Assembly: GCA_016124235.1 (NCBI GenBank)
Contig: WGOC01000017.1
Span: forward strand, 1 to 64,000
From: a bacterium
Lineage (GTDB): Bacteria > Verrucomicrobiota > Verrucomicrobiia > Limisphaerales > RI-55
DNA length: 64,000 nt
Reading direction: 5' to 3'
Position 1 is the stretch's first letter. Each line of letters begins with the position of its first letter. Under the pieces are notes generated by a model. That model worked only from the letters and a program-made list of their open reading frames with translations. It was not told where the DNA came from and did not search any database. Both the position numbers and the translations under genes were made by a program. Of the stretch, positions 6,749-56,210 are shown piece by piece.

Positions 6749-8518
6749 ATGAAATCGAGATTATTGCAGTTACCGCCCCTCAAAGTGAAACCACGAAAAT
6801 TAAAGAACATTCATACAGTTGCAATCCTCGCCGTTCTGCTGACGACCTGCCTGACGTCAGCATTCGGCCAAACAGGCGTGGTCCGCTTCAAGCAATCGGC
6901 CGTCACCGTGTCGGAAGGCATTGGCGTGGCCCTCATTGATCTGGAACGCACCGGCGCGGATGCCGGCACCCAGATCTCCTTTCAGACCGAAGCAATTTCC
7001 GCAGTCGAAGGCGTCGACTATTTTCCGGTGTCGGAAACCTACTCCTTTGCGGGAACCGAGACATCGGTTTCCATCGCCGTCCAGATCTACGACAATACCC
7101 AGAAGCAAGGCGACCGACAGTTCAAATTGACTCTGAGCAATCCGGTCGACCTCACCATCGACACGCCATCCGAAGTCACCATCACGATTGCGGACAACGA
7201 CGAACTCACTGTTCCCGGATTCGGAGCGGCCGGAACCAACATCTTTCAAGGCATTTACGCGTTGGGCACCAACTCGACCGGTTCCATCATCGCCGGAGGA
7301 GTCTTTCGCACGTTCAACGGAACTCTTCGAAAAAACCTCGCCCGCGTGCTGCCAAGCGGTGAATTGGATCCGAGCTTCACGCCGGGTTCTGGTCCGGACC
7401 GTCAGGTCTGGGCGCTTGCCGTGCAACCGGATGATCACATTCTAATCAGTGGCGATTTTCAAAACATTGACGTGATACCGCGCAATCGAATCGCGCGGTT
7501 GACGGACACCGGAACCGTCGATGCGAGCTTCAATCCAGGCACCGGCGCCGATAATCAAGTCAGCTCCATCGAATTGCAGAGCAACGGCCAGATTTTGATC
7601 GCGGGACAATTCGCCAACTACAATGGCACCCCACGCTCCGATGTCGCTCTGCTGAACAGCAGCGGCACACTTGACCTGTCATTCAATGCCGTGACGCCCG
7701 ATTCCTTTTTTGGCAGCACGGCCCGGCGCCAAGGTGATCACTTCCTCGTTGGAGGTTTTGTGTATGGCACCGGTGCGAACGTCACGAACAGCTTGATGCG
7801 TTTTGACTCAGCCGGTAATCGCGACACCGGCTTTCAGGTTTCTGTCGGCGATATCTTTTACAATCAGGTTTACGACATTCTCGTCCTGCCTGATCAGAAG
7901 ATCCTGATCTGCGGAAATTTTCTTGGCGTCAATGGCATGAACAGCAGTGGAATCGCTCGCTTGAATTCGAATGGATCTTTTGATTCAAGCTTCGATGTCG
8001 GGACTGGAGCCGACGACACGGTTCTCCACATGCAACGGCAAACGGATGGCAAAATTCTGGTCGCCGGCGTATTCACCACTTTCGATGGCCAACCTCGCTC
8101 AAGCATTGCGCGCCTGAACGAGAATGGTTCATTGGACACCAGTTTCGATCCGGGCGCCGGAGCCGACGATTTTGTGTACGACGCGCTGCCTCTGGCCGAT
8201 GGCGGCACTTTGGCCGGCGGTGCTTTTGACAGTTTCGACGGTTACGATCGTTTTCGCCTGGCCGAGCTCGATGCGAATGGCGCACTTCGAACGAACCCCA
8301 TCTCGATCAGCAGTTACCAATTGGAAGCCGGCCAAAATCTACGATTGAATTTAAAAGTGGAGCCAGGTCGAAGATTCCGAATTCTGTCGGCCCCGACCTT
8401 GGCCGGATGGAATCCGATCATAACCAACAGCACGGCTCGTAGTAGTTATGAAGCGGTCCTTCCCGCGAGTTCGGACCACGATTTCTTCAGAATTGAGCAG
8501 GCGTTCGATACTCCGTGA
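6749..8518 (+). CDS. Secreted Calx-beta and delta-60 repeat protein
   Basis: The 589-aa product starts with a basic stretch and a hydrophobic signal segment ending near residue 41 (SAFGQ). A Calx-beta domain follows (about 42-150: VTVSEG, VEGVDYFPVS, LSNPVDLTI, TITIADND). Roughly seven delta-60 repeats then run from about 165 to 530, each with a pattern like NGSFDSSFDVGTGADD and QTDGKILVAGVFTTFDG, predicted to form a beta-propeller. The last 55 residues resemble a verrucomicrobial C-terminal beta module. It is probably exported or surface-attached, and the ligand is unknown. It lies 51 bases after tilS. Confidence 0.85.
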   Translation: MKSRLLQLPPLKVKPRKLKNIHTVAILAVLLTTCLTSAFGQTGVVRFKQSAVTVSEGIGVALIDLERTGADAGTQISFQTEAISAVEGVDYFPVSETYSFAGTETSVSIAVQIYDNTQKQGDRQFKLTLSNPVDLTIDTPSEVTITIADNDELTVPGFGAAGTNIFQGIYALGTNSTGSIIAGGVFRTFNGTLRKNLARVLPSGELDPSFTPGSGPDRQVWALAVQPDDHILISGDFQNIDVIPRNRIARLTDTGTVDASFNPGTGADNQVSSIELQSNGQILIAGQFANYNGTPRSDVALLNSSGTLDLSFNAVTPDSFFGSTARRQGDHFLVGGFVYGTGANVTNSLMRFDSAGNRDTGFQVSVGDIFYNQVYDILVLPDQKILICGNFLGVNGMNSSGIARLNSNGSFDSSFDVGTGADDTVLHMQRQTDGKILVAGVFTTFDGQPRSSIARLNENGSLDTSFDPGAGADDFVYDALPLADGGTLAGGAFDSFDGYDRFRLAELDANGALRTNPISISSYQLEAGQNLRLNLKVEPGRRFRILSAPTLAGWNPIITNSTARSSYEAVLPASSDHDFFRIEQAFDTP

Positions 8519-8551: not shown

Positions 8552-9640
8552 TCACGCTGGCAGCTCCATGGTGACGGTCGTCATCATCATGGGCTCACTC
8601 TGCACGCTAAACTTGCCACCGTGTAATTCCGCCAACCGCTTGGCGATGATCAACCCCAGACCGGCTCCCTGTTGCTCGTAGTATTTACGGTCAAACTGCA
8701 TGTGGGCGCCTACTCGCGTGATTTGATCCGGTGAGAAGCCACGCCCCTGATCGCTGATGCGCAAATGCAGTTTGCTGTCCTGGTTGAACGCCTCCACCGA
8801 CACTGCCTGTCCCGCGGTTGAGAACTTGAACGCATTATCGAGCAGTTCGGTGAAAATCTTTTTGAAATGCTCGGAAGGCACAGCACACGTGACGGGCAAC
8901 ATGTTCATTTGCAGGTCACCTTCGCGATTGCGCGATGTGGCCACTTCCGCGGCCCAGCCGTTGAGCACACCCTCGACTTTGACCGAGTCCCCCAGGCGGA
9001 GTTTCGCTTCCTGATCGGGATCACGAACCATCAGTTCGATCTGCGAGTAGACGAGGAAGTTTTCAATCAGCCGGTGCAGGCGATTGGCAGACTGATGAAT
9101 GAACTGAAGATTCTCCCGCACCTCGTCCTGGGTCATCGATTCACCATCCTCCAGGAGCATCGAGGAAAGCCCTAGGATGCCATTCAATGGGGTGCGAAGT
9201 TCATGCGGCAGGGCCATGGTAATGTTGCCCCGCAATTCCTCGAGTCGTTGATCGGCCTGGCGTTTAATGGTCGCCTGTTTTTCAAACTGGGCGGTGACTG
9301 AAGCAATCAGTTCCTGAATGCTGAAGGGCTTGGTCAGATAATCGTCCGCGCCAAGCTCCATGCCGCGCCGGATGTTTACACGTTCGGCCGCGCCGGTCAG
9401 AAAAATGAAGGGCATCGTGGACATCGAGCCTTCCGAACGAATCGCCTCCAGCACGCCGTAACCATCCATGCGTGGCATGTGGATATCGCAAATCACCAGG
9501 TCAGGATGGTGCCGTCGCGCCGCCTCCACACCCGCCAGGCCGTCGTCCGCGGAGACGCACTCGTAGCTCTGCGTCGCCAGTGTGTCGACGATAAGATCAC
9601 GCATTGCAGGCGTGTCTTCGATGACGAGGATTTTTTTCAT
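8552..9640 (-). CDS. Response regulator-histidine kinase hybrid (REC-HisKA-HATPase)
   Basis: The 362-aa soluble protein has an N-terminal receiver domain (residues 2-118, phosphoacceptor Asp52 in LVICDIHMP, Lys104 in LTKPF), then a HisKA domain with the H-box ALPHELRTPLNG (His146), and a C-terminal HATPase with DQGRGFSPDQ and GAGLGLIIAKRLAELHGG. The order receiver-then-kinase suggests it is phosphorylated by another kinase and passes the signal on. No sensor or output domain is present. It lies 128 bases downstream of pheT on the same strand, but a shared role is not suggested. Confidence 0.9.
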   Translation of the reverse strand: MKKILVIEDTPAMRDLIVDTLATQSYECVSADDGLAGVEAARRHHPDLVICDIHMPRMDGYGVLEAIRSEGSMSTMPFIFLTGAAERVNIRRGMELGADDYLTKPFSIQELIASVTAQFEKQATIKRQADQRLEELRGNITMALPHELRTPLNGILGLSSMLLEDGESMTQDEVRENLQFIHQSANRLHRLIENFLVYSQIELMVRDPDQEAKLRLGDSVKVEGVLNGWAAEVATSRNREGDLQMNMLPVTCAVPSEHFKKIFTELLDNAFKFSTAGQAVSVEAFNQDSKLHLRISDQGRGFSPDQITRVGAHMQFDRKYYEQQGAGLGLIIAKRLAELHGGKFSVQSEPMMMTTVTMELPA

Positions 9641-25763: not shown

Positions 25764-26987
25764 ATGAAACGTTCATCCAACGCCATCGTTGCACTCGGCA
25801 TCGTCGTGCTGGTGATGTTTGGCTGGGGGCTTTGGCAGTTGTTCACGTTGCGTTTCGAAACGGGTGATGTTTATCTGCCTTATTCTTCGTTGCGCGCCGA
25901 TCCGCTTGGAGCCAAGGCGCTGTACGATAGTCTGGATTCTCTGGACAGTATTCGCGTGGGTCGCAACTACCGGCCGTTGGAACACCTGCAGGATGCCCAA
26001 CAAACGACGGTCTTTTGGCTCGGCGACGCTCATTCCATCACGCCCGAACCGGAGTGGCGCAATTTCATCCGAGCTGGCGGCCGGCTCGTGGTTGCTTGGA
26101 CGCCATCGCAATTTGTCGATCGCAGCGCCCGTTCGACCAACACGACATCCGGCCCGCTTCCCTGGCAGCAGGCGCGCTATCGCAAGGGGCCGTTGCTGCC
26201 GCGCGAACCTCTTTCCATGAAGCCGGAGGATGTTGAATTTCGCGACTCCTGGCAGTTGGGTATCGATTTCGTCGCATTGCCCGGAATGGCCGCGGAATTC
26301 AAATCCGCGCCCGCAAAACTCGTGACGGATCTCCCGTTACCTGACGAAATCGCGTGGCATTCTACCGTTTGTTTCACGAACCTGAACGACGACTGGAAAG
26401 TCATCTACGAACGGGCCAACCAACCCGTCGTGGTTGAGCGCAAGATCGGCGCCGGCTCGGTCGTCGTGGCTACCGATGCCTGGCCCGTCAGCAACGAGGC
26501 GCTGCGCAAAGAACGTCAGCCCGGTTTTCTCACGTGGTTAATCGGGGACCACTCAACGGTGATTTTTGATGAGCAACACCTGGGCGTCACGGCAAGCCCC
26601 GGCATCGCAAGTTTGATGCGACGTTATCGCATGCAGGGGATCGTCGGCGCGTTCTTCGTACTGGCGATGTTATTTGTCTGGCGCAGCTCAACGAGTTTTC
26701 CGCCGCGTCCAAAAATCGTTCGGCAGGAGGAAATGGTGCCGGACATTATCGGACGCGACGCCGCGTCGGGCTTCGTTAATCTGTTGCAACGCGGCGTCCC
26801 GCGAGCGGACTTGCTGCAAACGTGTTTTGCCGAATGGAAACAAAGTCTCGCGGCTGGCAAAGGTTGTTCCAAGGAACGGCTCGATCGCATGGAAAAACTG
26901 CTGTTGTCGTTTGAAGATACGCCGCCCGATCAACGTAATCCGATCGAAACTTATCGAGAACTGCACCGGGCGTGGAAAGAGAAGTGA
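25764..26987 (+). CDS. DUF4350-domain membrane protein
   Basis: The 407-aa product has an N-terminal transmembrane helix (about 7-28), a DUF4350 domain containing SSLRADPLGAKALYDSLDSL, VFWLGDAHSITPEPEWRNFI and RAGGRLVVAWTP, and a second transmembrane helix (about 287-305) before a cytoplasmic tail. DUF4350 resembles ThuA/GATase-like periplasmic domains and is a standing member of MoxR-DUF58 operons. It starts three bases after the DUF4129 gene. Function is inferred only from association. Confidence 0.85.
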   Translation: MKRSSNAIVALGIVVLVMFGWGLWQLFTLRFETGDVYLPYSSLRADPLGAKALYDSLDSLDSIRVGRNYRPLEHLQDAQQTTVFWLGDAHSITPEPEWRNFIRAGGRLVVAWTPSQFVDRSARSTNTTSGPLPWQQARYRKGPLLPREPLSMKPEDVEFRDSWQLGIDFVALPGMAAEFKSAPAKLVTDLPLPDEIAWHSTVCFTNLNDDWKVIYERANQPVVVERKIGAGSVVVATDAWPVSNEALRKERQPGFLTWLIGDHSTVIFDEQHLGVTASPGIASLMRRYRMQGIVGAFFVLAMLFVWRSSTSFPPRPKIVRQEEMVPDIIGRDAASGFVNLLQRGVPRADLLQTCFAEWKQSLAAGKGCSKERLDRMEKLLLSFEDTPPDQRNPIETYRELHRAWKEK

Positions 26988-27165
26988 TGAACCCGTTACC
27001 CGTCCATTCTCTTTCTTCCTCGTCGTCGTTCTCGGGCTCGTCTTTGATCAAAGCGAGTATCGAATTGAAAGCAGGCACTCAAAAAGTTTTCGACAACGAC
27101 AACGAGCGCGACGACGAGGACGAGCAACGCGCATCGCAGCCGGCAAACAATTTAAGCATTAACTC
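26988..27165. repeat. Intergenic imperfect inverted triplet-rich element
   Basis: The 178 bases between the DUF4350 and MoxR genes interrupt an otherwise tight operon. They contain a pyrimidine-rich arm (about 27006-27044, TCGTCGTC-type triplets) and a purine-rich counterpart (about 27089-27132, GACGACGAG-type triplets) that could pair imperfectly. A short acidic reading frame spans it but looks like a by-product of the repeat. It is probably a dispersed intergenic repeat; a regulatory role is not shown. Confidence 0.4.
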
Positions 27166-46575: not shown

Positions 46576-47487
46576 ATGCAAGAGCAGGCGATGCTTCTTG
46601 AGCTCTCCACCGGGCGCCGCCGACCGATGCGGTCGACGGCGCCCGTCTGCTCCAGTGTTGGGAAAGGTTGGGACGGGTTTCTTGTCGAGGAACACCCACC
46701 GGTCACCGCGATGTCCACGAACGTCGCGCTCTTTGAAAGCGCCGTGTTCATTCCCATCGACGGCCGGATCCACCTCGAGTGGAAAAGTGGCCGGGAGGCG
46801 GTAACCAAGGAAATTGCTCCCGGACAGATTAGCATTCTACCGGCAAACCATCCGTATTCGGTGAAGCTGCGCGCGGCCGGGGAAAGCGTGGTGGTTTCCC
46901 TCGCTGAAAAACTAATCGCACTGGCGGCGGCCGATCAGGGCGTCTTCACTGCGATTCAACCCGTGTGGGTCCACGGTGTCGAAGATGCGCTCGTGCGGGA
47001 ACTCGTCATGTCTTTGCGCGAAGAGATGCGGAGCACCTCGGTCAGTGGCGAGCGATATGCGCATTCCCTGGCGTCAACTCTGGCCGCTCACATCGTCCGT
47101 CGTTACTCCACGGATCGATTGAGCATTCCTTCGCCGAGTGGAGGCCTGTCGATTGTCGCTCTGCGGCGGGTGGTGCATTACATTCACGATCATCTTGGTG
47201 AAAATCTGACGCTCGGCACGCTGGCCGCCAAAGCCAACCTGAGCACGTGTCATTTCGCGCGCATGTTCAAGGTTTCAACGGGTATCTCGCCCCACCGTTA
47301 CTTGTTGAACTGCCGGATCGCCCGCGCCAAGAAGCTAATGACCCAGGGCAAAGGCACGCTGGCGGAAATCGCGCTCCGGTCGGGCTTTTGCGATCAAGGA
47401 CACCTGACCCGCAGTTTCCGCGATATTGTCGGCACCACGCCCGCCGCATTTTTGAGAGACCTCGCCGTCGCCGGACAACGCGGTTGA
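46576..47487 (+). CDS. AraC-family transcriptional regulator
   Basis: The 303-aa product has an N-terminal cupin-like sensing part (about 1-190, PGQISILPANHPYSVKLRA) and a C-terminal AraC-type double helix-turn-helix (about 205-300: LGTLAAKANLSTCHFARMFK, GISPHRYLLNCRIARAKKLM, LAEIALRSGFCDQGHLTRSF). It most resembles single-gene regulators of carbohydrate or ester use. It sits directly upstream of the two esterase genes on the same strand, 116 bases before the first, so they are candidate targets. ATG 46576 is chosen over TTG 46564. Confidence 0.88.
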   Translation: MQEQAMLLELSTGRRRPMRSTAPVCSSVGKGWDGFLVEEHPPVTAMSTNVALFESAVFIPIDGRIHLEWKSGREAVTKEIAPGQISILPANHPYSVKLRAAGESVVVSLAEKLIALAAADQGVFTAIQPVWVHGVEDALVRELVMSLREEMRSTSVSGERYAHSLASTLAAHIVRRYSTDRLSIPSPSGGLSIVALRRVVHYIHDHLGENLTLGTLAAKANLSTCHFARMFKVSTGISPHRYLLNCRIARAKKLMTQGKGTLAEIALRSGFCDQGHLTRSFRDIVGTTPAAFLRDLAVAGQRG

Positions 47488-47603
47488 TGCGGTTTTCCGA
47501 TCCCCCGTCGAATCGGAACGGTCCGAACAGGAACCGCAATCCTTTCCCATCCGCATCAAACGCGTCCAATCATCTCGGGAGTTTTCCGGGTAATGGTTAT
47601 CTC

Positions 47604-49738
<2,135 letters not shown>

Positions 49739-49827: not shown

Positions 49828-49892
49828 GATTGCGTGCCGTCTTGCGATCGATATCAAATCAATAGAACACCGACTCGAAATCATGACCGTAT

Positions 49893-50100
49893 TTGGCGCA
49901 GACAGCCCCTCAGCTGGAAATCGTGTGCTTGCTTGACTTTGCTGCCGAGAAGAACCCCAAAAGCAAAGCCCTCTACCAACCGCGCTGCCATCTCGGAGCC
50001 ACTCAGGGCGACATTGCGAATTTAAAAGCCGAGGACATGGACCAGACGCGCGGCACGATCAGCTTCACGCGGCGCAAGACCGGCGTGCCAGTGTTCGGGC
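49893..50100 (+). pseudogene. Tyrosine recombinase (phage-type integrase) remnant
   Basis: A reading frame here contains CHLGATQGDIANLKAEDMDQ and TRGTISFTRRKTGVPV, which match the central part of tyrosine recombinases around the first catalytic Arg region (usual form LGGSQ-DIA-L--EDID, then R-KTG-PV). The upstream SAM-like domain and the downstream His-x-x-Arg and Tyr motifs are missing, so only a fragment of about 60 codons remains. It is not the integron IntI type. It borders the AT-rich cassette-like region and fits an eroded mobile element. Confidence 0.6.
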
Positions 50101-50145
50101 AACGTTGCCATCAACCTGGAATGCCGGCGGTCAGGTCCGCCGGGG

Positions 50146-50316
50146 CTATGGGGTGAGAATTGAGCCGAAGGGCTTGCGCCGTGTTGCACCGAAGCGCCCT
50201 TGTTTGGAGTTGGCGGTGAGCCACTCGGCTGCGTTAACGATGAAAGGAATGGCGACGCACGCAACGGCGATGTTACTTCGAAACAAGTTCACAGAATGTC
50301 CGTTCATGCTGGGCAT
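50146..50316 (-). CDS. 56-aa orphan protein with one membrane segment (cassette-like)
   Basis: The product begins MPSMNGHSVNLFRSN, has a hydrophobic stretch (about 16-31, IAVACVAIPFIVNAAEWL) and a basic tail, and ends at a TAG. Its ATG lies eight bases after the predicted R' box of the hairpin at 50325-50456, the position expected for the first gene after an integron attC site. No family is recognised. Such short orphan genes are common in integron cassettes. It could be a chance frame. Confidence 0.4.
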   Translation of the reverse strand: MPSMNGHSVNLFRSNIAVACVAIPFIVNAAEWLTANSKQGRFGATRRKPFGSILTP

Positions 50317-50324
50317 GAGGAAAC

Positions 50325-50456
50325 GCCTAACGCAAATATTGGTCAGAGGCTGGCTCGCAAGCCGCGCTGTCGATGCTCAAATGATGGTTCAGATTTCACG
50401 GCAAGGTATCGAATCGCAGCGGCGGAAGCCATATGTCTCGGACTACCTGGTTAGCC
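50325..50456 (-). repeat. attC-like imperfect hairpin, site B
   Basis: The ends are GCCTAAC (50325-50331) and GTTAGCC (50450-50456); on the minus strand these read R'' GGCTAAC and R' GTTAGGC. Inside, four short stems pair in register (348-351 with 427-430; 361-365 with 419-423; 368-369 with 417-418; 371-374 with 413-416, all plus 50000), separated by small bulges. It begins at the stop codon of the 82-aa gene. Length 132 bp is within the attC range. Confidence 0.5.
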
Positions 50457-50699
50457 GACTAAACTGCTTCCACATTTCGAGCAAAAGCGAGCCGCGTCGC
50501 GACCGATCCCGATATGTAACTGACGACAACTTGGACAACGTTTGGCGCTGGACATGATCGCAACGACAAAAGCTGCAAATCCAATCCCAAACCATCCGAC
50601 CAAAGGCGTCCCGGTAAAGAAACCAAAACTCGCAACGGCAATACTCAGAACGTAGATCCAGAAAACCAACCGATACTTGGACTGTGTCATCGAAGGCAT
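50451..50699 (-). CDS. 82-aa membrane protein with zinc ribbon (cassette-like)
   Basis: The product has two transmembrane helices (about 11-28 and 33-50) and a C-terminal zinc ribbon (CPSCRQLHIGIGRD, FCSKCGSSL). The regular zinc-ribbon pattern argues for a real gene. It is bounded on both sides by attC-like hairpins and starts 13 bases after one (GTTAGCC on the minus strand at 50718-50712) and stops at the next. This is the single-gene, single-promoterless-cassette layout. No known family name. The region is AT-richer than the rest of the window. Confidence 0.6.
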   Translation of the reverse strand: MPSMTQSKYRLVFWIYVLSIAVASFGFFTGTPLVGWFGIGFAAFVVAIMSSAKRCPSCRQLHIGIGRDAARFCSKCGSSLVG

Positions 50700-50711
50700 A
50701 GGAACTTTTCA

Positions 50712-50834
50712 GGCTAACACCAAAATCACTGACTCCCATGTAGACGGGGCAGGAACGGAACGAAAGGGTACAAATGATCAATAACCGTCAATCGAAACGC
50801 CGTATGGGAGTCCTGGTGATTCGTCTTGTTAGAC
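50712..50834 (-). repeat. attC-like imperfect hairpin, site A (best candidate)
   Basis: The ends are GGCTAAC (50712-50718) and GTTAGAC (50828-50834), matching R boxes at 6-7 of 7 positions. After unpaired spacers of 5 and 6 bases, AATCAC (50724-50729) pairs with GTGATT (50816-50821) and GACTCCCAT (50731-50739) with ATGGGAGTC (50804-50812), 15 perfect pairs interrupted by an asymmetric bulge (one base against three), like the extrahelical bases of attC. The 123-bp length and position between two minus-strand genes fit a cassette recombination site. Confidence 0.65.
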
Positions 50835-50849
50835 ATTTTCTTCTTGGAT

Positions 50850-51248
50850 TTAACGCTTTCGGAAACGCCACTGTATCGCCACTCCAAGGACCAGAAATAC
50901 CAGGGAGATGGATAGCCCTAGTGCTGCACCCGATCCAAAGTGCAAAGCTATACAGAAAATTCCAGAGGCAAATAAAAGCAGGCAAGTGTAGAAACACCAC
51001 GAATAAACGGCGAAGAGGACTGGTTGTTCATTCATATCCGGCCACCGCATCGCAGACTGAAAAGTAAACGGAACAAGAACCGTCATGAAACAAGAAGCCG
51101 CCCATCTTAACTCATCTGGAAGCGGATTAATTGAGAGCATTGTTAGAATGGAACCGAAAGATGCTGCCGCGAATCCGAGACACATCGGCCGATACAGATG
51201 GTCATTCGTGTCCAAAGTATTAATAAACCAATAGAGTATGCACAACAC
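50850..51248 (-). CDS. Small integral membrane protein of unknown function (cassette-like)
   Basis: The 132-aa product (GTG start at 51248; ATG at 51185 would give 111 aa) is mostly four transmembrane helices: CLGFAAASFGSILTMLS, LRWAASCFMTVLVPFTF, VLFAVYSWCFYTCLLLFASG and LGLSISLVFLVLGVAIQW. It ends 15 bases before attC-like site A and starts after a third hairpin, so it also looks like one cassette. No family is recognised. Codon usage is AT-richer than the neighbouring esterase genes. Confidence 0.55.
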   Translation of the reverse strand: MLCILYWFINTLDTNDHLYRPMCLGFAAASFGSILTMLSINPLPDELRWAASCFMTVLVPFTFQSAMRWPDMNEQPVLFAVYSWCFYTCLLLFASGIFCIALHFGSGAALGLSISLVFLVLGVAIQWRFRKR

Positions 51249-51264
51249 CGCGCTCGGTCCAATT

Positions 51265-51414
51265 TCCTAACGTGTTCTTTTCCTGAGGAATTACGGAAGC
51301 CCATGCGCCAATTTTTCGCAAGATTCTTCCCCATTCTTTTCGGCGCTCGGAGCGGACCCGTTGCGCGTGAGTTGGCGCTCGGAACCGTCCTTCCGTTGCC
51401 AGAATTGGTTTAGA
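51265..51414 (-). repeat. attC-like imperfect hairpin, site C (weak)
   Basis: The ends are TCCTAAC (51265-51271) and GGTTTAGA (51407-51414), only loosely R-box-like. Inside, ACGGAAG (51293-51299) pairs with CTTCCGT (51390-51396) and GCGCCAA (51305-51311) with TTGGCGC (51372-51378). It lies just upstream of the 132-aa gene in its direction of transcription. Confidence 0.35.
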
Positions 51415-51530
51415 GCATTGTTCACCCGCGCCAGTCACGCCCGGTCCTCTGCCAGTTCCATCACCTGCTGAGTTCGCACACCCGCTCGACCGTTTCTTTC
51501 AATCGAGCGGGGTTGAACGCTTTCAAAGCC

Positions 51531-52763
51531 TCAATACAACACCGACTCAAAAAACGCCTTCATCTCGGCCGCATAATAGACACCGTACTTTTCAAAAGTG
51601 GCTTTCGTGCGCGCGTCGGGTTTCCAATCGAAGAAGGCGTGGCTCGCGCCGCCGACCTGCACGTATTCGGCTCGCTGTCCGGCGTCGACCAGCGCGTCCG
51701 TGAATTCCTTCACCATCTGATCGTTAATCAGCGGATCTTTCGTGCCGCGGGTGAGGAATTGCGGAACCGATCGTTCCGATGCTTTGGGGATTTGTTTGAT
51801 CGGCGAAATCGCGTCGCGCCAGCTTTCATCCGCAGCCGGGTCTTCGGAATACGTGTTCAAGAACCGCCCGCCAAACACCCCGTAGCTGGGAGCCGCCGCT
51901 TTAATCGAAGAGAGCATTTCGGCCTTCACCTGTTCGATCGTTTTGTCCTTCGGCATATAAGTTGGCTTGTATTCGAACACACCCGGCGTTTTACCAAAGC
52001 CGCGATCGCCAATCATATTCACCATCAACGAACAGGCCGCCGAAAGATGGCCGCCCGCGCTGTCGCCGGTGAGGCCGATCCGAGTGGGATCACCGCCGTA
52101 TTCCTTGGCGTGCTCCATGATGTGCGCCACCGCGCCGTAAACGTCCTCGATCAGGTTCGCCATCGTATTCGGCGTCGCATCGCCATCCGCCTTGCCACCC
52201 CAACGATAGTCGATCGAGCAAACGACGAACTTGCCGCCCTTGGTCAATTCGCGCGCGAGCCCGCGCATGATATCCTCGTCGTTCGTCACCCACCCGCCAC
52301 CGTGGATGATCACGATGATCGGCAAGTTGTTCGCCCCTTTTGGCGAATACACGTCATACTTGAGCTCCTTCACGCCCGGGTGGCCATACACGACATTCTG
52401 AATGACGTTGATGTGATCGACCGCCGATTTCTCGATGAACGACGCGCCGATGTGTTTGTCCTGGTCAATGGTGACCTTGAAAACCGGCGTCATCGATTCG
52501 TGATACATCGCGCCCCAGCGACCGGGAATCGAGTAGTAACCCGAGTCGAGCGCGAAACCGTCCGCTGGCGCGGTTGTCACGGTGACCACCGTTCCGGAGG
52601 GATACTTGCCGTCCGCCGGCAACGGCGGGACCAGCGTGAAACTACCGTTGACCGGCTGATCAAGGGTCACGGTGAAGTCTTCGGCGTGGGCGGAAATCGC
52701 GGCTCCGTAAAAAACAGGCATGGCGGCAAGGAGCGCGACGGTTCGAAAAAATGCGGGTTTCAT
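51531..52763 (-). CDS. Secreted alpha/beta hydrolase with N-terminal InlB-like repeat domain
   Basis: The 410-aa product has a signal peptide (about 1-28, AISAHAEDF), a divergent InlB B-repeat-like beta domain (about 29-112: PSGTVVTVTTAPADGFALD, VFKVTIDQDKHIGASFIEK), and an alpha/beta hydrolase domain of the acetyl-esterase/BD-FAE type with VIIHGGGWV (HGGG at 154-157), the elbow GDSAGG (Ser235) and GGASHAFFDW with the likely catalytic His. It probably deacylates small or polymeric esters outside the cell. The InlB-like module may bind sugar or the cell surface. Confidence 0.87.
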   Translation of the reverse strand: MKPAFFRTVALLAAMPVFYGAAISAHAEDFTVTLDQPVNGSFTLVPPLPADGKYPSGTVVTVTTAPADGFALDSGYYSIPGRWGAMYHESMTPVFKVTIDQDKHIGASFIEKSAVDHINVIQNVVYGHPGVKELKYDVYSPKGANNLPIIVIIHGGGWVTNDEDIMRGLARELTKGGKFVVCSIDYRWGGKADGDATPNTMANLIEDVYGAVAHIMEHAKEYGGDPTRIGLTGDSAGGHLSAACSLMVNMIGDRGFGKTPGVFEYKPTYMPKDKTIEQVKAEMLSSIKAAAPSYGVFGGRFLNTYSEDPAADESWRDAISPIKQIPKASERSVPQFLTRGTKDPLINDQMVKEFTDALVDAGQRAEYVQVGGASHAFFDWKPDARTKATFEKYGVYYAAEMKAFFESVLY

Positions 52764-52987
52764 GGTTGATGAAGTTTAACAAGTCAGCCCAGCCATGCGC
52801 AATGCTGCAACGCTCTCCGCACCGAATCTCTGCATTTCGCAAGGGCGTCCCAACAACGACAAGGCGCTCCAATTTCCCTTTAAGGCATCGACTTTTTTCC
52901 GCACGTTGATCACATTCTTTCCACTCAGCGAATCGATCAACCAAGCCTGGCCAACATCATTGCGGCAGGCAAACCAGCAACCGGATC

Positions 52988-53773
52988 ATGAAAACATTCA
53001 AACCAAAACTCGGCGCAGTCGCGCTCAGCATTTTTACTTCACTTCATCTTTTTGCCGCCGACGTCACCGGCGATTGGAAGGCCGAATTTGACACTCAGAT
53101 TGGCGCTCAAAAATACACCTATCACCTCAAGCAGGACGGGGAGAAAATCACCGGCAAAGCCAACTCCGACATCGGCGGCGAGAAGCGCGAGGTCGAATTG
53201 AAGGACGGCAAGATCGCAGGCGATCAGATCACTTTTTACGAGACGTTCGATTATCAGGGCAACTCGATCCGCATCGATTACACAGGTAAAATCGCCGGTG
53301 ATGAAATCAAGTTCACCCGCAAGGTCGGCGACTTCGCGACGGAAGAACTGGTGGCGAAGCGGGTGAAAGACGAATCGGCTGCCGCCGGATTCGACGCCGC
53401 AAAACTGGTCGGGACATGGACCTATGTAAGCGGCGAGAAAGACGGCGCCAACCTCGACAAGGACCATTTCGCCGGACAGAAAGCGACGTTCACCGACAAG
53501 GAAATCAAAGTGAGCGGCCCGAACGGGGAATACGATTTCACCTACAAGCTGGATACCAAGAAACTTCCGGTGGCCATCACGATGGAAATGACCGCGGGCG
53601 GCGGCGGTGGGGACTCGAAGGCGGCTGGCATCATTGCGCTCGATGGAAATAATTTGAAGCTGTGCTATCCACCGAGAGGAGGCGCCGCACCAACCAAGTT
53701 CGAAGCACCTTCGGGCAGCGGCCTTCATTACTTCGTGTTCGAGCGCGCGTCCGACAAAGCGGCTGCAAAATGA
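52988..53773 (+). CDS. Secreted lipocalin-like protein (TIGR03067-like C-terminus)
   Basis: The 261-aa product has a signal peptide (about 1-24, HLFAADVTG), a first beta-barrel-like half (TGDWKAEFDTQIGAQKYTYH, then repeated KIAGDEIKFTRK-type strands), and a second half resembling TIGR03067 (KLVGTWTYVSGEKDGANLDK, GEYDFTYKLDTKKLPVAITM, GIIALDGNNLKLCYPPRGG). The family is common in Planctomycetes and Verrucomicrobia and is uncharacterised. It opens a plus-strand group of ester-hydrolase genes. Confidence 0.75.
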   Translation: MKTFKPKLGAVALSIFTSLHLFAADVTGDWKAEFDTQIGAQKYTYHLKQDGEKITGKANSDIGGEKREVELKDGKIAGDQITFYETFDYQGNSIRIDYTGKIAGDEIKFTRKVGDFATEELVAKRVKDESAAAGFDAAKLVGTWTYVSGEKDGANLDKDHFAGQKATFTDKEIKVSGPNGEYDFTYKLDTKKLPVAITMEMTAGGGGGDSKAAGIIALDGNNLKLCYPPRGGAAPTKFEAPSGSGLHYFVFERASDKAAAK

Positions 53774-53801
53774 AATTCCACGTCATCACATAACACGTCC
53801 C

Positions 53802-54680
53802 ATGAACAAAACTTGGTTGAACATCTTCATCGTTCTTTTGCTCAGCGCCGCCGCCAGCACCGCGCAGAATCAAGTCATCCGCCTTTATGATGGCAAGGCG
53901 CCCGCCTCGGAAAACTGGACGCAAACCGAGCAGACCAACACGCACAATCTTTGGAATACACGCGTCGTCTTCAACGTGGCGGATCCGACGATGACCGTTT
54001 TCAAACCAGCTCCCGACAAAGCCAACGGCACGGCCGTCGTGATCTGTCCCGGCGGCGCATTCTTCGCCTTGTCGATCGACAGCGAAGGCAATGACGTTGC
54101 CCGCTGGCTCGCGGAAAAGGGCGTCACGTGTTTTGTGCTCAAGTATCGTCTCGTCGAATGCAAGACGGACGATCCGACTCGCGAAGTCGGCACGCGCGGT
54201 CCGCTGGATCAGATCGTAAAACCCATTGTTCCTTTGGCGATGGCTGATGGTCTCACCGCAATTGGTCATGTGCGAAAACATGCGCAGGAATTTGGGGTGA
54301 ATCCCGACAAGATTGGCATCATCGGCTTTTCAGCCGGCGGCACGGTTACCGCATCCGTCGCGTTCAATTACACGCCCGAAACGCGTCCGAATTTCGTCGC
54401 GCCGATTTATCCCGCCTACAGTTGGGCGATTCATGACAAAGGTGTTCCCGCAGATGCGCCGCCGCTGTTCGTCCTGGCTGCCACCGATGATCAACTCGGT
54501 CTGGCACCGCAGAGCGTCCAGATTTATCAGGACTGGGTCGCCGCCGGCAAATCCGCCGAGTTGCACCTGTTCGCCAAAGGCGGTCACGGTTTCGGCATGC
54601 GCTAACAAAATATTCCCACTGACCACTGGATTCGTCTGTTCGCCGACTGGCTGGACCTCCAAGGCTTCATGAAAAAGTAA
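53802..54680 (+). pseudogene. Acetyl-xylan-esterase-like alpha/beta hydrolase with in-frame stop near the C-terminus
   Basis: The product has a signal peptide (about 1-21), VVICPGGAFFAL, the nucleophile elbow GFSAGG (Ser177 in IGIIGFSAGG) and the catalytic His region GGHGFGMR. A TAA at 54603-54605 follows that Arg, but the same frame continues 24 codons (QNIPTDHWIRLFADWLDLQ...) to a second stop at 54678-54680 just before the next gene. The continuation reads like the normal family end. A single base change (A to T in a Lys codon) would create the first stop. The truncated protein of 267 aa retains Ser and His and may still work. Confidence 0.75.
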
Positions 54681-54683
54681 GTT

Positions 54684-56210
54684 ATGAAAATCGCGCTTCA
54701 ATCATTTGTCTTCGTTCTGGCCTCACTCGCAACCGCATCTGCTCTCGATGTTGTTACCACGCAATCTGGCAGGGTATCGGGCACGAAAACCGCCGACGGT
54801 GAGATCACAAGTTTCAAAGGCGTACCGTTCGCCGCTCCGCCAGTCGGCGATTTGCGCTGGAAAGCTCCGCAGCCGGTCAAACCGTGGGACGGGGTACGCG
54901 AATGCACCAAATTGGGAGCGAGCCCGATGCAGGGCAAGCCGGCGCCCTTCAGCATGTGGAGCAAGGAATTCCTGATTCCCGACGAACCGATCAGCGAGGA
55001 CTGCCTCTATTTGAACGTGTGGACCGGGGCCAAGTCAGCAGGCGAGAAGCGCCCCGTCCTCGTCTGGATTTACGGCGGCGGATTTTCCAGCGGCGGCAGC
55101 GGTTGCCCGATTTACGACGGCGAAGCGATGGCGCGAAAAGGAATCGTCTTCGTGAGTATCAATTACCGCGTCGGCCCTTTTGGCTTTTTTGCGCATCCCG
55201 AACTGACGAAAGAATCCGGCTACAACGCTTCCGGCAATTACGGTTTGCTGGACCAGATTGGGGGGCTGAAGTGGGTCCAGGAAAATATCTCCGGCTTTGG
55301 CGGTGATCCGAAAAATGTGACGATCGCCGGGCAGTCCGCCGGTTCAATGAGCGTCAATTGCCTAGTCGCCTCGCCGTTGGCAAAAAGTTTGTTTGAACGC
55401 GCGATTGGTGAAAGTGGCGCCAGCTTTTCCCGAAATCAAATGTCCCTGGAAGCGGCCGAGAAAGCCGGGGTCGAAGCCGCAAAATCGGTTGGGGCGTCGT
55501 CACTCGCCGAACTGCGTGCCAAGTCGTCGGATGAAATCATGAAGATGCGAAGCCGCGGCGGACCGATCATTGATGGATACGTTTTGCCCGAGCAGGTCGC
55601 GGATATTTTTGCCGCGGGCAAACAAAACAAAGTCGATCTGTTGACGGGATGGAATCAGGACGAGGGCTTGATGTTCGGTCCGATCCGGAAGGCGGAAGAA
55701 TTCAAGGAACAGATGAAGCAGCGGTACGGTGACAACGCGGAAAAGATGCTGGCGTTCTATCCGGCCACCGACGACGAACTCGCGGCCCAATCGCAAAGGG
55801 ATCTCTCGCGCGACATGATTTTCGGCGCCGCGAATTACACCTGGGCCAACGCCACGGCACAACAGGGTGCGGGCCAGGTTTACGTTTATCGATTCACCCG
55901 CAAGGTTCCCGGCACCGGCGAATATGCGAAGTACGGCGCCTTCCACACCGGTGAAGTTCCTTACGCCTACGACAACTTGAAATTCGTCGATCGCCCCTGG
56001 CAACCAGTCGATCATGAACTCGCAAAAAAGATGTCCAGCTACTGGGCCAACTTCATTAAGACCGGCAACCCGAATGGCGACGAACTAACCGACTGGCCGG
56101 CGTACGAGTCGGCCACCAAGAACGTGATGATTCTGGGCGCGACGGTGGAAGCAAAACCGTTACCGGACCGGGCGGCCTTGGATATCCTCGCGCCCAACCG
56201 ACAGCGATAG
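54684..56210 (+). CDS. Secreted type B carboxylesterase
   Basis: The 508-aa product has a signal peptide (about 1-20), the family start GRVSGTKTADGEITSFKGVP, PPVGDLRWKAPQPV, the disulphide-loop region EDCLYLNVW, WIYGGGFSSGGSG, the nucleophile elbow GQSAGS (Ser218), an acid in NQDEGLMFGP and a His in YGAFHTGEVPYAYDNL. These are the catalytic triad regions of carboxylesterase/para-nitrobenzyl esterase enzymes. It starts three bases after the second stop of the preceding gene, so they are co-transcribed. Confidence 0.93.
   Translation: MKIALQSFVFVLASLATASALDVVTTQSGRVSGTKTADGEITSFKGVPFAAPPVGDLRWKAPQPVKPWDGVRECTKLGASPMQGKPAPFSMWSKEFLIPDEPISEDCLYLNVWTGAKSAGEKRPVLVWIYGGGFSSGGSGCPIYDGEAMARKGIVFVSINYRVGPFGFFAHPELTKESGYNASGNYGLLDQIGGLKWVQENISGFGGDPKNVTIAGQSAGSMSVNCLVASPLAKSLFERAIGESGASFSRNQMSLEAAEKAGVEAAKSVGASSLAELRAKSSDEIMKMRSRGGPIIDGYVLPEQVADIFAAGKQNKVDLLTGWNQDEGLMFGPIRKAEEFKEQMKQRYGDNAEKMLAFYPATDDELAAQSQRDLSRDMIFGAANYTWANATAQQGAGQVYVYRFTRKVPGTGEYAKYGAFHTGEVPYAYDNLKFVDRPWQPVDHELAKKMSSYWANFIKTGNPNGDELTDWPAYESATKNVMILGATVEAKPLPDRAALDILAPNRQR

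Follow-up and report, generated by a model that had tools for sequence, protein, structure and literature searches.

A probable degenerate CALIN within the remains of an int X/Z element in a verrucomicrobial genome

The 64 kb stretch of DNA analysed here (the window) contains three small minus-strand ORFs at 50146-51414, which the initial annotation described as a CALIN-like array of orphan gene cassettes separated by attC-type hairpins. All three ORFs, of 56, 82 and 132 amino acids, are present at the coordinates given there, and the segment is AT-richer than its surroundings, with a GC content of 50.0% against 57.2% for the window, a value equally low in 3 of 315 windows. Cassette 1 carries ORF3 (50850-51248, minus strand), which encodes a hydrophobic protein listed at 132 amino acids. 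Its codons ahead of position 51215 belong to right-end sequence common to the window and a second locus of the same genome, on contig C8, and the in-cassette start is probably the ATG at 51185, giving a product of about 111 amino acids. Cassette 2 carries ORF2 (50451-50699, minus strand), which starts 13 bases past a GTTAGCC motif and whose product combines hydrophobic segments with a C-terminal zinc ribbon (CPSC...CSKC), matched by Pfam zinc-ribbon profiles below their cut-off. Cassette 3 carries ORF1 (50146-50316, minus strand), which starts 9 bases past a GTTAGGC; this cassette is truncated upstream of any attC. ORF2 and ORF3 look like orphans, with no convincing relatives among 293 genomes of the order or in plasmids, nor, respectively, in viral contigs and GTDB contigs; their best match in these searches was 48% over 33 amino acids in a Terriglobus MAG. 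ORF1 was compared with profile libraries only. Pfam, NCBIfam and PHROGs profiles gave sub-threshold matches alone to the ORFs, and an Rfam scan of the window matched nothing.

The hairpin at site A (50712-50834) has the attC plan that had been ascribed to it. On the minus strand it reads GTCTAAC-AAGAC-stem ... stem-GTTAGCC, with R'' (GTCTAAC) and R' (GTTAGCC) boxes, spacers of 4-6 bases, a stem of about 15 pairs and a 5' arm with two additional unpaired bases; attCs of related integrons carry their extra bases in this arm too. In a log-odds scan for hairpins of this plan, site A ranked first or second in the 64 kb window with a score of 22.2, reached in one of 150 shuffled windows. No non-attC site reached 22.2 in 134 kb of other sequence from the same genome, and the highest in 236 kb from relatives was a single site at 22.1. 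The 32 known attCs of the order score 4.8-36 on this scale, and the two scored from the same genome 17.1 and 18.0. Folded as a single strand, the plus strand of site A reaches -19.6 kcal/mol (z -2.5) and resembles the genome's true attCs. Another window hairpin, at 26955-27034, has AAC/GTT ends and a plan score of 23.5, on a par with site A, and no attC model match. Site B (50325-50456, minus strand) is a degenerate attC at best: its R boxes, GGCTAAC and GTTAGGC, are good and the stop codon of ORF2 falls within its R'' box, but its stem is at chance level (5.8), and the combination of extra bases in one arm with a better-folded bottom strand is displayed by site A and not by site B. The R boxes of both sites fit the pattern RYYYAAC ... 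GTTRRRY with one mismatch each. The third proposed attC, site C, is discarded: what lies there is the end of a decayed gene together with a spacer, a sequence also present at the C8 locus, and the supposed R box of the site, GTTAGGA, lies within this shared stretch (51209-51373).

Covariance-model matches had been predicted at sites A and B. In IntI-bearing loci of the order, 36 candidate attCs were identified; the arms of 34 were aligned, and a model (R1) was built from these 34. R1 retrieves about 45 attCs at 38-70 bits in an orientation-specific manner and scores the source genome's true attCs at 40-58 bits, but matches neither site A nor site B, even with filters off, and an array of at least two attC sites recognised by the model was not found in the window. 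As R1 misses both sites while finding true attCs, the hairpins alone are little proof; because R1 is order-specific and G+C-rich, the lack of a match is still compatible with a divergent attC.

A TIGR02249 profile search of the source genome (G000; an assembly 56% complete, in 47 contigs) agreed with the initial annotation that no IntI lies within the window. The genome as a whole is not integrase-less, however. Positions 1-3584 of contig C19 (locus L020) carry a full-length IntI ORF of 480 amino acids, scoring 377 bits against a cut-off of 265, together with four model-supported attCs at 330, 845, 1364 and 1746, all on the minus strand. The C19 array extends toward the start of the contig. 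Genome-wide, R1 recognised one strong attC outside C19: a site of 47.7 bits on contig C8.

The window segment is bordered by remnants of a different tyrosine recombinase element, which the initial annotation had not seen. At 49938-50124 on the plus strand lies a fragment of a phage-type tyrosine recombinase (Phage_integrase, not IntI), here called int X, detected by tblastn at 56% over 52 amino acids (E 2e-12). It covers codons ~174-225, lacks the first ~173 codons and is followed by an internal deletion. int X is present in 128 of the 293 genomes of the order, IntI in 102. Its usual convergent neighbour is a small gene, Z, detected in 48 of 110 int X loci. At the other end of the window segment, positions 51375-51500 (minus strand) are the decayed C-terminal part of Z (31% over 42-49 amino acids by tblastn, one stop, E 8e-5 to 1.5e-4), the N-terminal part being absent. 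The window cassettes therefore sit between Z and int X, whose remnants retain their usual relative orientation. Among copies that lack cassettes and whose gap could be measured, the stops of Z and int X mostly overlap or lie at most 75 bases apart; this gap sometimes contains a hairpin. No relaxase ORF was found between the window remnants, nor is the integrase intact. Insertion of int X itself into attC sites was considered and set aside, since Z is found beyond the cassettes, on the side away from int X.

A 22-base direct repeat, also overlooked before, flanks the segment. Its left copy (49859-49880, plus strand) is identical at 20 of 22 positions to the right copy (51531-51552, plus strand), which coincides with the 3' end of an esterase gene (51531-52763); no such repeat is expected in shuffled sequence. 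The two copies are at most putative att sites of the element, both of its outer ends being missing. An esterase/alpha-beta hydrolase gene cluster flanks the element remnant on both sides (47247-49738 and 51531-56210).

The best other match to the int X fragment (49.9-50.1 kb) in the same genome lies a few hundred bases from the attC on contig C8, and comparison of the two loci reveals a common frame around different contents. At the left end, window positions 49984-50101 are 82% identical to C8 over 118 bp of the int X recombinase. At the right end, the tail of Z and a spacer (51209-51373, minus strand) are 89% identical to C8 over 166 bp, a stretch found in these two copies only. The cargo between the shared ends is wholly different: that of C8 consists of one ORF of 151 amino acids followed by the 47.7-bit attC, the R' box of which adjoins the recombinase stop codon. 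The right-end alignment finishes in C8 at ...TTTATTAATACTG^TTCGAC, with an integron core of G^TTCGAC, and in the window at ...TTTATTAATACT-TTGGAC, where the G of the core has been lost; in both loci homology stops there. Two related frames that are homologous up to an integron core and then diverge into different ORFs, one of these followed by a true attC, are taken as the trace of cassette exchange, and the replacement of cargo within the same frame suggests that cassettes were exchangeable at the G^TT core. Judged from sequence, the C8 comparison outweighs the hairpins and supplies the decisive evidence. The shared right end was also read as a conserved small protein (MGKNLAKNW...), but this reading was rejected, 7 of the 12 codon changes altering the amino acid when counted by eye. 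The sister element on C8 (locus L115) is itself flanked by a 115-bp direct repeat, 90% identical, at 6750-6864 and 9331-9444, and next to it there is a further repeat of 297 bp (9049 and 10566).

The site at which homology breaks in the window, GGTTTATTAATACT|TTGGAC (51210-51229, minus strand), resembles an attI core from which the G of G^TT has been lost. An attI profile was derived from G^TT cores lying ~180-360 bases upstream of 14 IntI genes. Against this profile, which contains the core itself and whose training sites were identified from position and core rather than experimentally, true attI sites score 7-21 (leave-one-out), the C8 core 16.9 and a corresponding core in a second genome (G076) 22.4; the window core, lacking its G, scores 11.8, and a core in a third genome (G268) 10.8. 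Counting duplicate copies of both sites, 6 of 15,466 GTT sites reach the score of the C8 core and 2 that of the G076 core, and among 485 R-box-like cores alone the two rank 6 and 2, respectively. In the window, C8 and G076, the attI-like core adjoins Z rather than intI. A functional attI next to intI, as in a complete integron, was not found in the window, where intI is absent and the core G is lost.

In three further int X loci of the order, the 3' side of the gene is occupied by an attC or by cassette-like cargo. In G011 (contig C147), an attC of 28.4 bits begins 23 bases past the aligned end of the integrase, and Z lies 3.5 kb further on. In G268 (contig C193), an attC of 35.2 bits lies in a complete-looking element comprising int X, a small gene Y, a TrwC relaxase and Z. 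This locus (L236 1-8273) contains two cassettes, one of which encodes a zinc-ribbon/membrane protein broadly similar in type to the ORF2 product. In G076 (contig C95), the sites are degenerate: two ORFs each start 17-20 bases past a GTTAGGC, and the first ends in a 23-bp stub, GCCTAAC-N9-GTTAGGC (L235 1382-1404), which lies between the two cassette ORFs and is an attC reduced to its R boxes. Without exception, the attCs of int X loci share one strand, which is antisense to int X. Among the roughly 110 int X 3' flanks looked at, three have a model-supported attC, and its orientation is identical in all three. From our count of non-IntI attC clusters in the four genomes searched (~0.4 per Mb), about 0.07 would be expected in these flanks, an approximate figure that was calculated once the data had been seen. 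Cassette-bearing int X loci are few and were recognised partly by inspection and partly by the model. Most int X 3' flanks examined lack an attC, and the non-IntI attCs fetched from two other genomes, G009 and G018, do not adjoin int X, which implies that most CALINs of the order arise otherwise.

We consider it likely that the window segment is a degenerate CALIN, made up of decayed cassettes, inside a decayed int X/Z element. The C8 sister locus, the break at the core, the Z remnant, the other int X loci and the IntI on C19 all lead to this reading, as do the ORF starts close to GTTAG[GC]C motifs, the ORF2 stop within R'', the standing of site A against background and the attI-like cores. 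Of the array first proposed, what survives through the C8 comparison is a set of cassettes without a neighbouring IntI; site C and the model matches do not. Counting against the CALIN reading are the lack of a model match at sites A and B, the chance-level stem of site B, the missing core G, the absence of an attC from cassette 3, the many int X 3' flanks without attCs, the location of the G009 and G018 attCs, and the part played by inspection in recognising cassette-bearing loci. We propose that an ancestral int X/Z element acquired cassettes at a G^TT core of integron type, situated directly beyond the end of Z, and that these cassettes read away from Z in the direction of int X. The chromosomal IntI, acting in trans, would be the likeliest agent of insertion, and site A was probably once a working attC. 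Copies of the element would then have diverged and their cassettes turned over, C8 receiving or keeping a different one. The window copy presumably decayed afterwards: recombinase and Z, the core site, the final cassette and the stems of the attCs all deteriorated. Exchange of cassettes in its array has therefore probably ceased, although the cell may still produce the membrane and zinc-ribbon proteins.

A more ordinary origin is unlikely but has some features in its favour. The ORFs could be normal cargo genes of the int X element that reached the interval between Z and int X through a deletion, a duplication or the action of another recombinase, with chance or terminators accounting for the hairpins and R boxes. 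The failure of sites A and B against the attC model fits this account, as does the hairpin at 26955-27034, which scores as high as site A without matching the model, and so does another int X copy in which an 820-base gap to Z contains no recognised attC. It does not, however, anticipate a strong attC in exactly the same frame on C8, a homology break at the G^TT core, R' boxes 9 and 13 bases ahead of ORF starts or an ORF2 stop inside R''. Quite improbable, in our view, is descent from a complete ancestral integron (intI-attI-cassettes) that was invaded by int X/Z or rearranged and then lost intI, leaving attI and cassettes behind. The attI-like heads of the arrays are in keeping with such a history, and loss of intI is a published route to CALINs (PMC8618304), but none of these arrays was seen to have an intI remnant next to it, and in the window, C8 and G076 the attI-like core has Z as its neighbour instead.

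The remaining alternative is a stronger form of the degenerate CALIN reading and compatible with it. The int X/Z element, with its TrwC relaxase, could be a satellite integron that has its own attI-like docking site and no integron integrase, is regularly loaded with cassettes by a resident IntI in trans and spreads them within and between genomes of the order by mobilization. We regard this as possible but doubtful. It would account for the attI-like cores that head the arrays of C8 and G076, whose scores fall inside or slightly exceed the range of true attI sites, for the cassettes inside the complete-looking, relaxase-bearing element of G268 and for the uniform orientation of the attCs. Yet only a handful of the roughly 110 int X loci carry cassettes, an empty docking site is not apparent in cassette-less copies, the score of the G268 core is only 10.8 and the shared right end is limited to the two copies of one genome. 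The element may have a dedicated docking site or may simply be a favourable target.

Returning to the degenerate CALIN reading, the array would be of a known kind, unusual in its location and possibly in an attI-like docking site. It shares with CALINs, clusters of attC sites lacking an integron integrase, its short, co-oriented cassettes, orphan ORFs, R boxes at the junctions, the lack of a nearby intI and the presence elsewhere in the genome of an IntI that could act in trans. It differs from them in attC stems too divergent for the attC model, in being embedded in a phage-type tyrosine-recombinase element and in the attI-like head of its sister copies. Off-target insertion by an IntI encoded elsewhere in the genome is a published route to CALINs (PMC8618304). 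According to papers (PMC12901181, PMC11023631) that cite Loot et al. 2024, Nat Microbiol 9:228, off-target IntI activity inserts cassettes at attG sites; as these papers describe them, such insertions likewise place cassettes away from the integron with a junction at the G^TT core, whereas here the same interval holds cassettes in several elements, and their junction is attI-like rather than an arbitrary genomic site. The G268 element, with int X, Y, TrwC relaxase and Z, resembles integrative mobilizable elements (MobF/TrwC relaxase, tyrosine integrase), from which the window copy differs in being a remnant with neither a relaxase nor an intact integrase.

CALINs are common, and their origin and travel have mostly been guessed from single genomes. 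Two sister copies of a single mobile element that hold different cassettes at one core suggest cassette turnover outside the integron, and the presence of different cassettes at this spot in copies from the same and other genomes hints, on sequence comparison, that such elements could ferry cassettes without an integron integrase of their own. If the cassettes are attached to a mobilizable element, integrase-less arrays would have a route between cells. CALINs have been described as hitchers of integrons, mobilised in trans by complete integrons (PMC11389934), and a carrier with its own docking site, if real, would make that idea concrete and testable. As a separate observation, several contigs of the order stop just upstream of intI, as if the assemblies had been broken by arrays.
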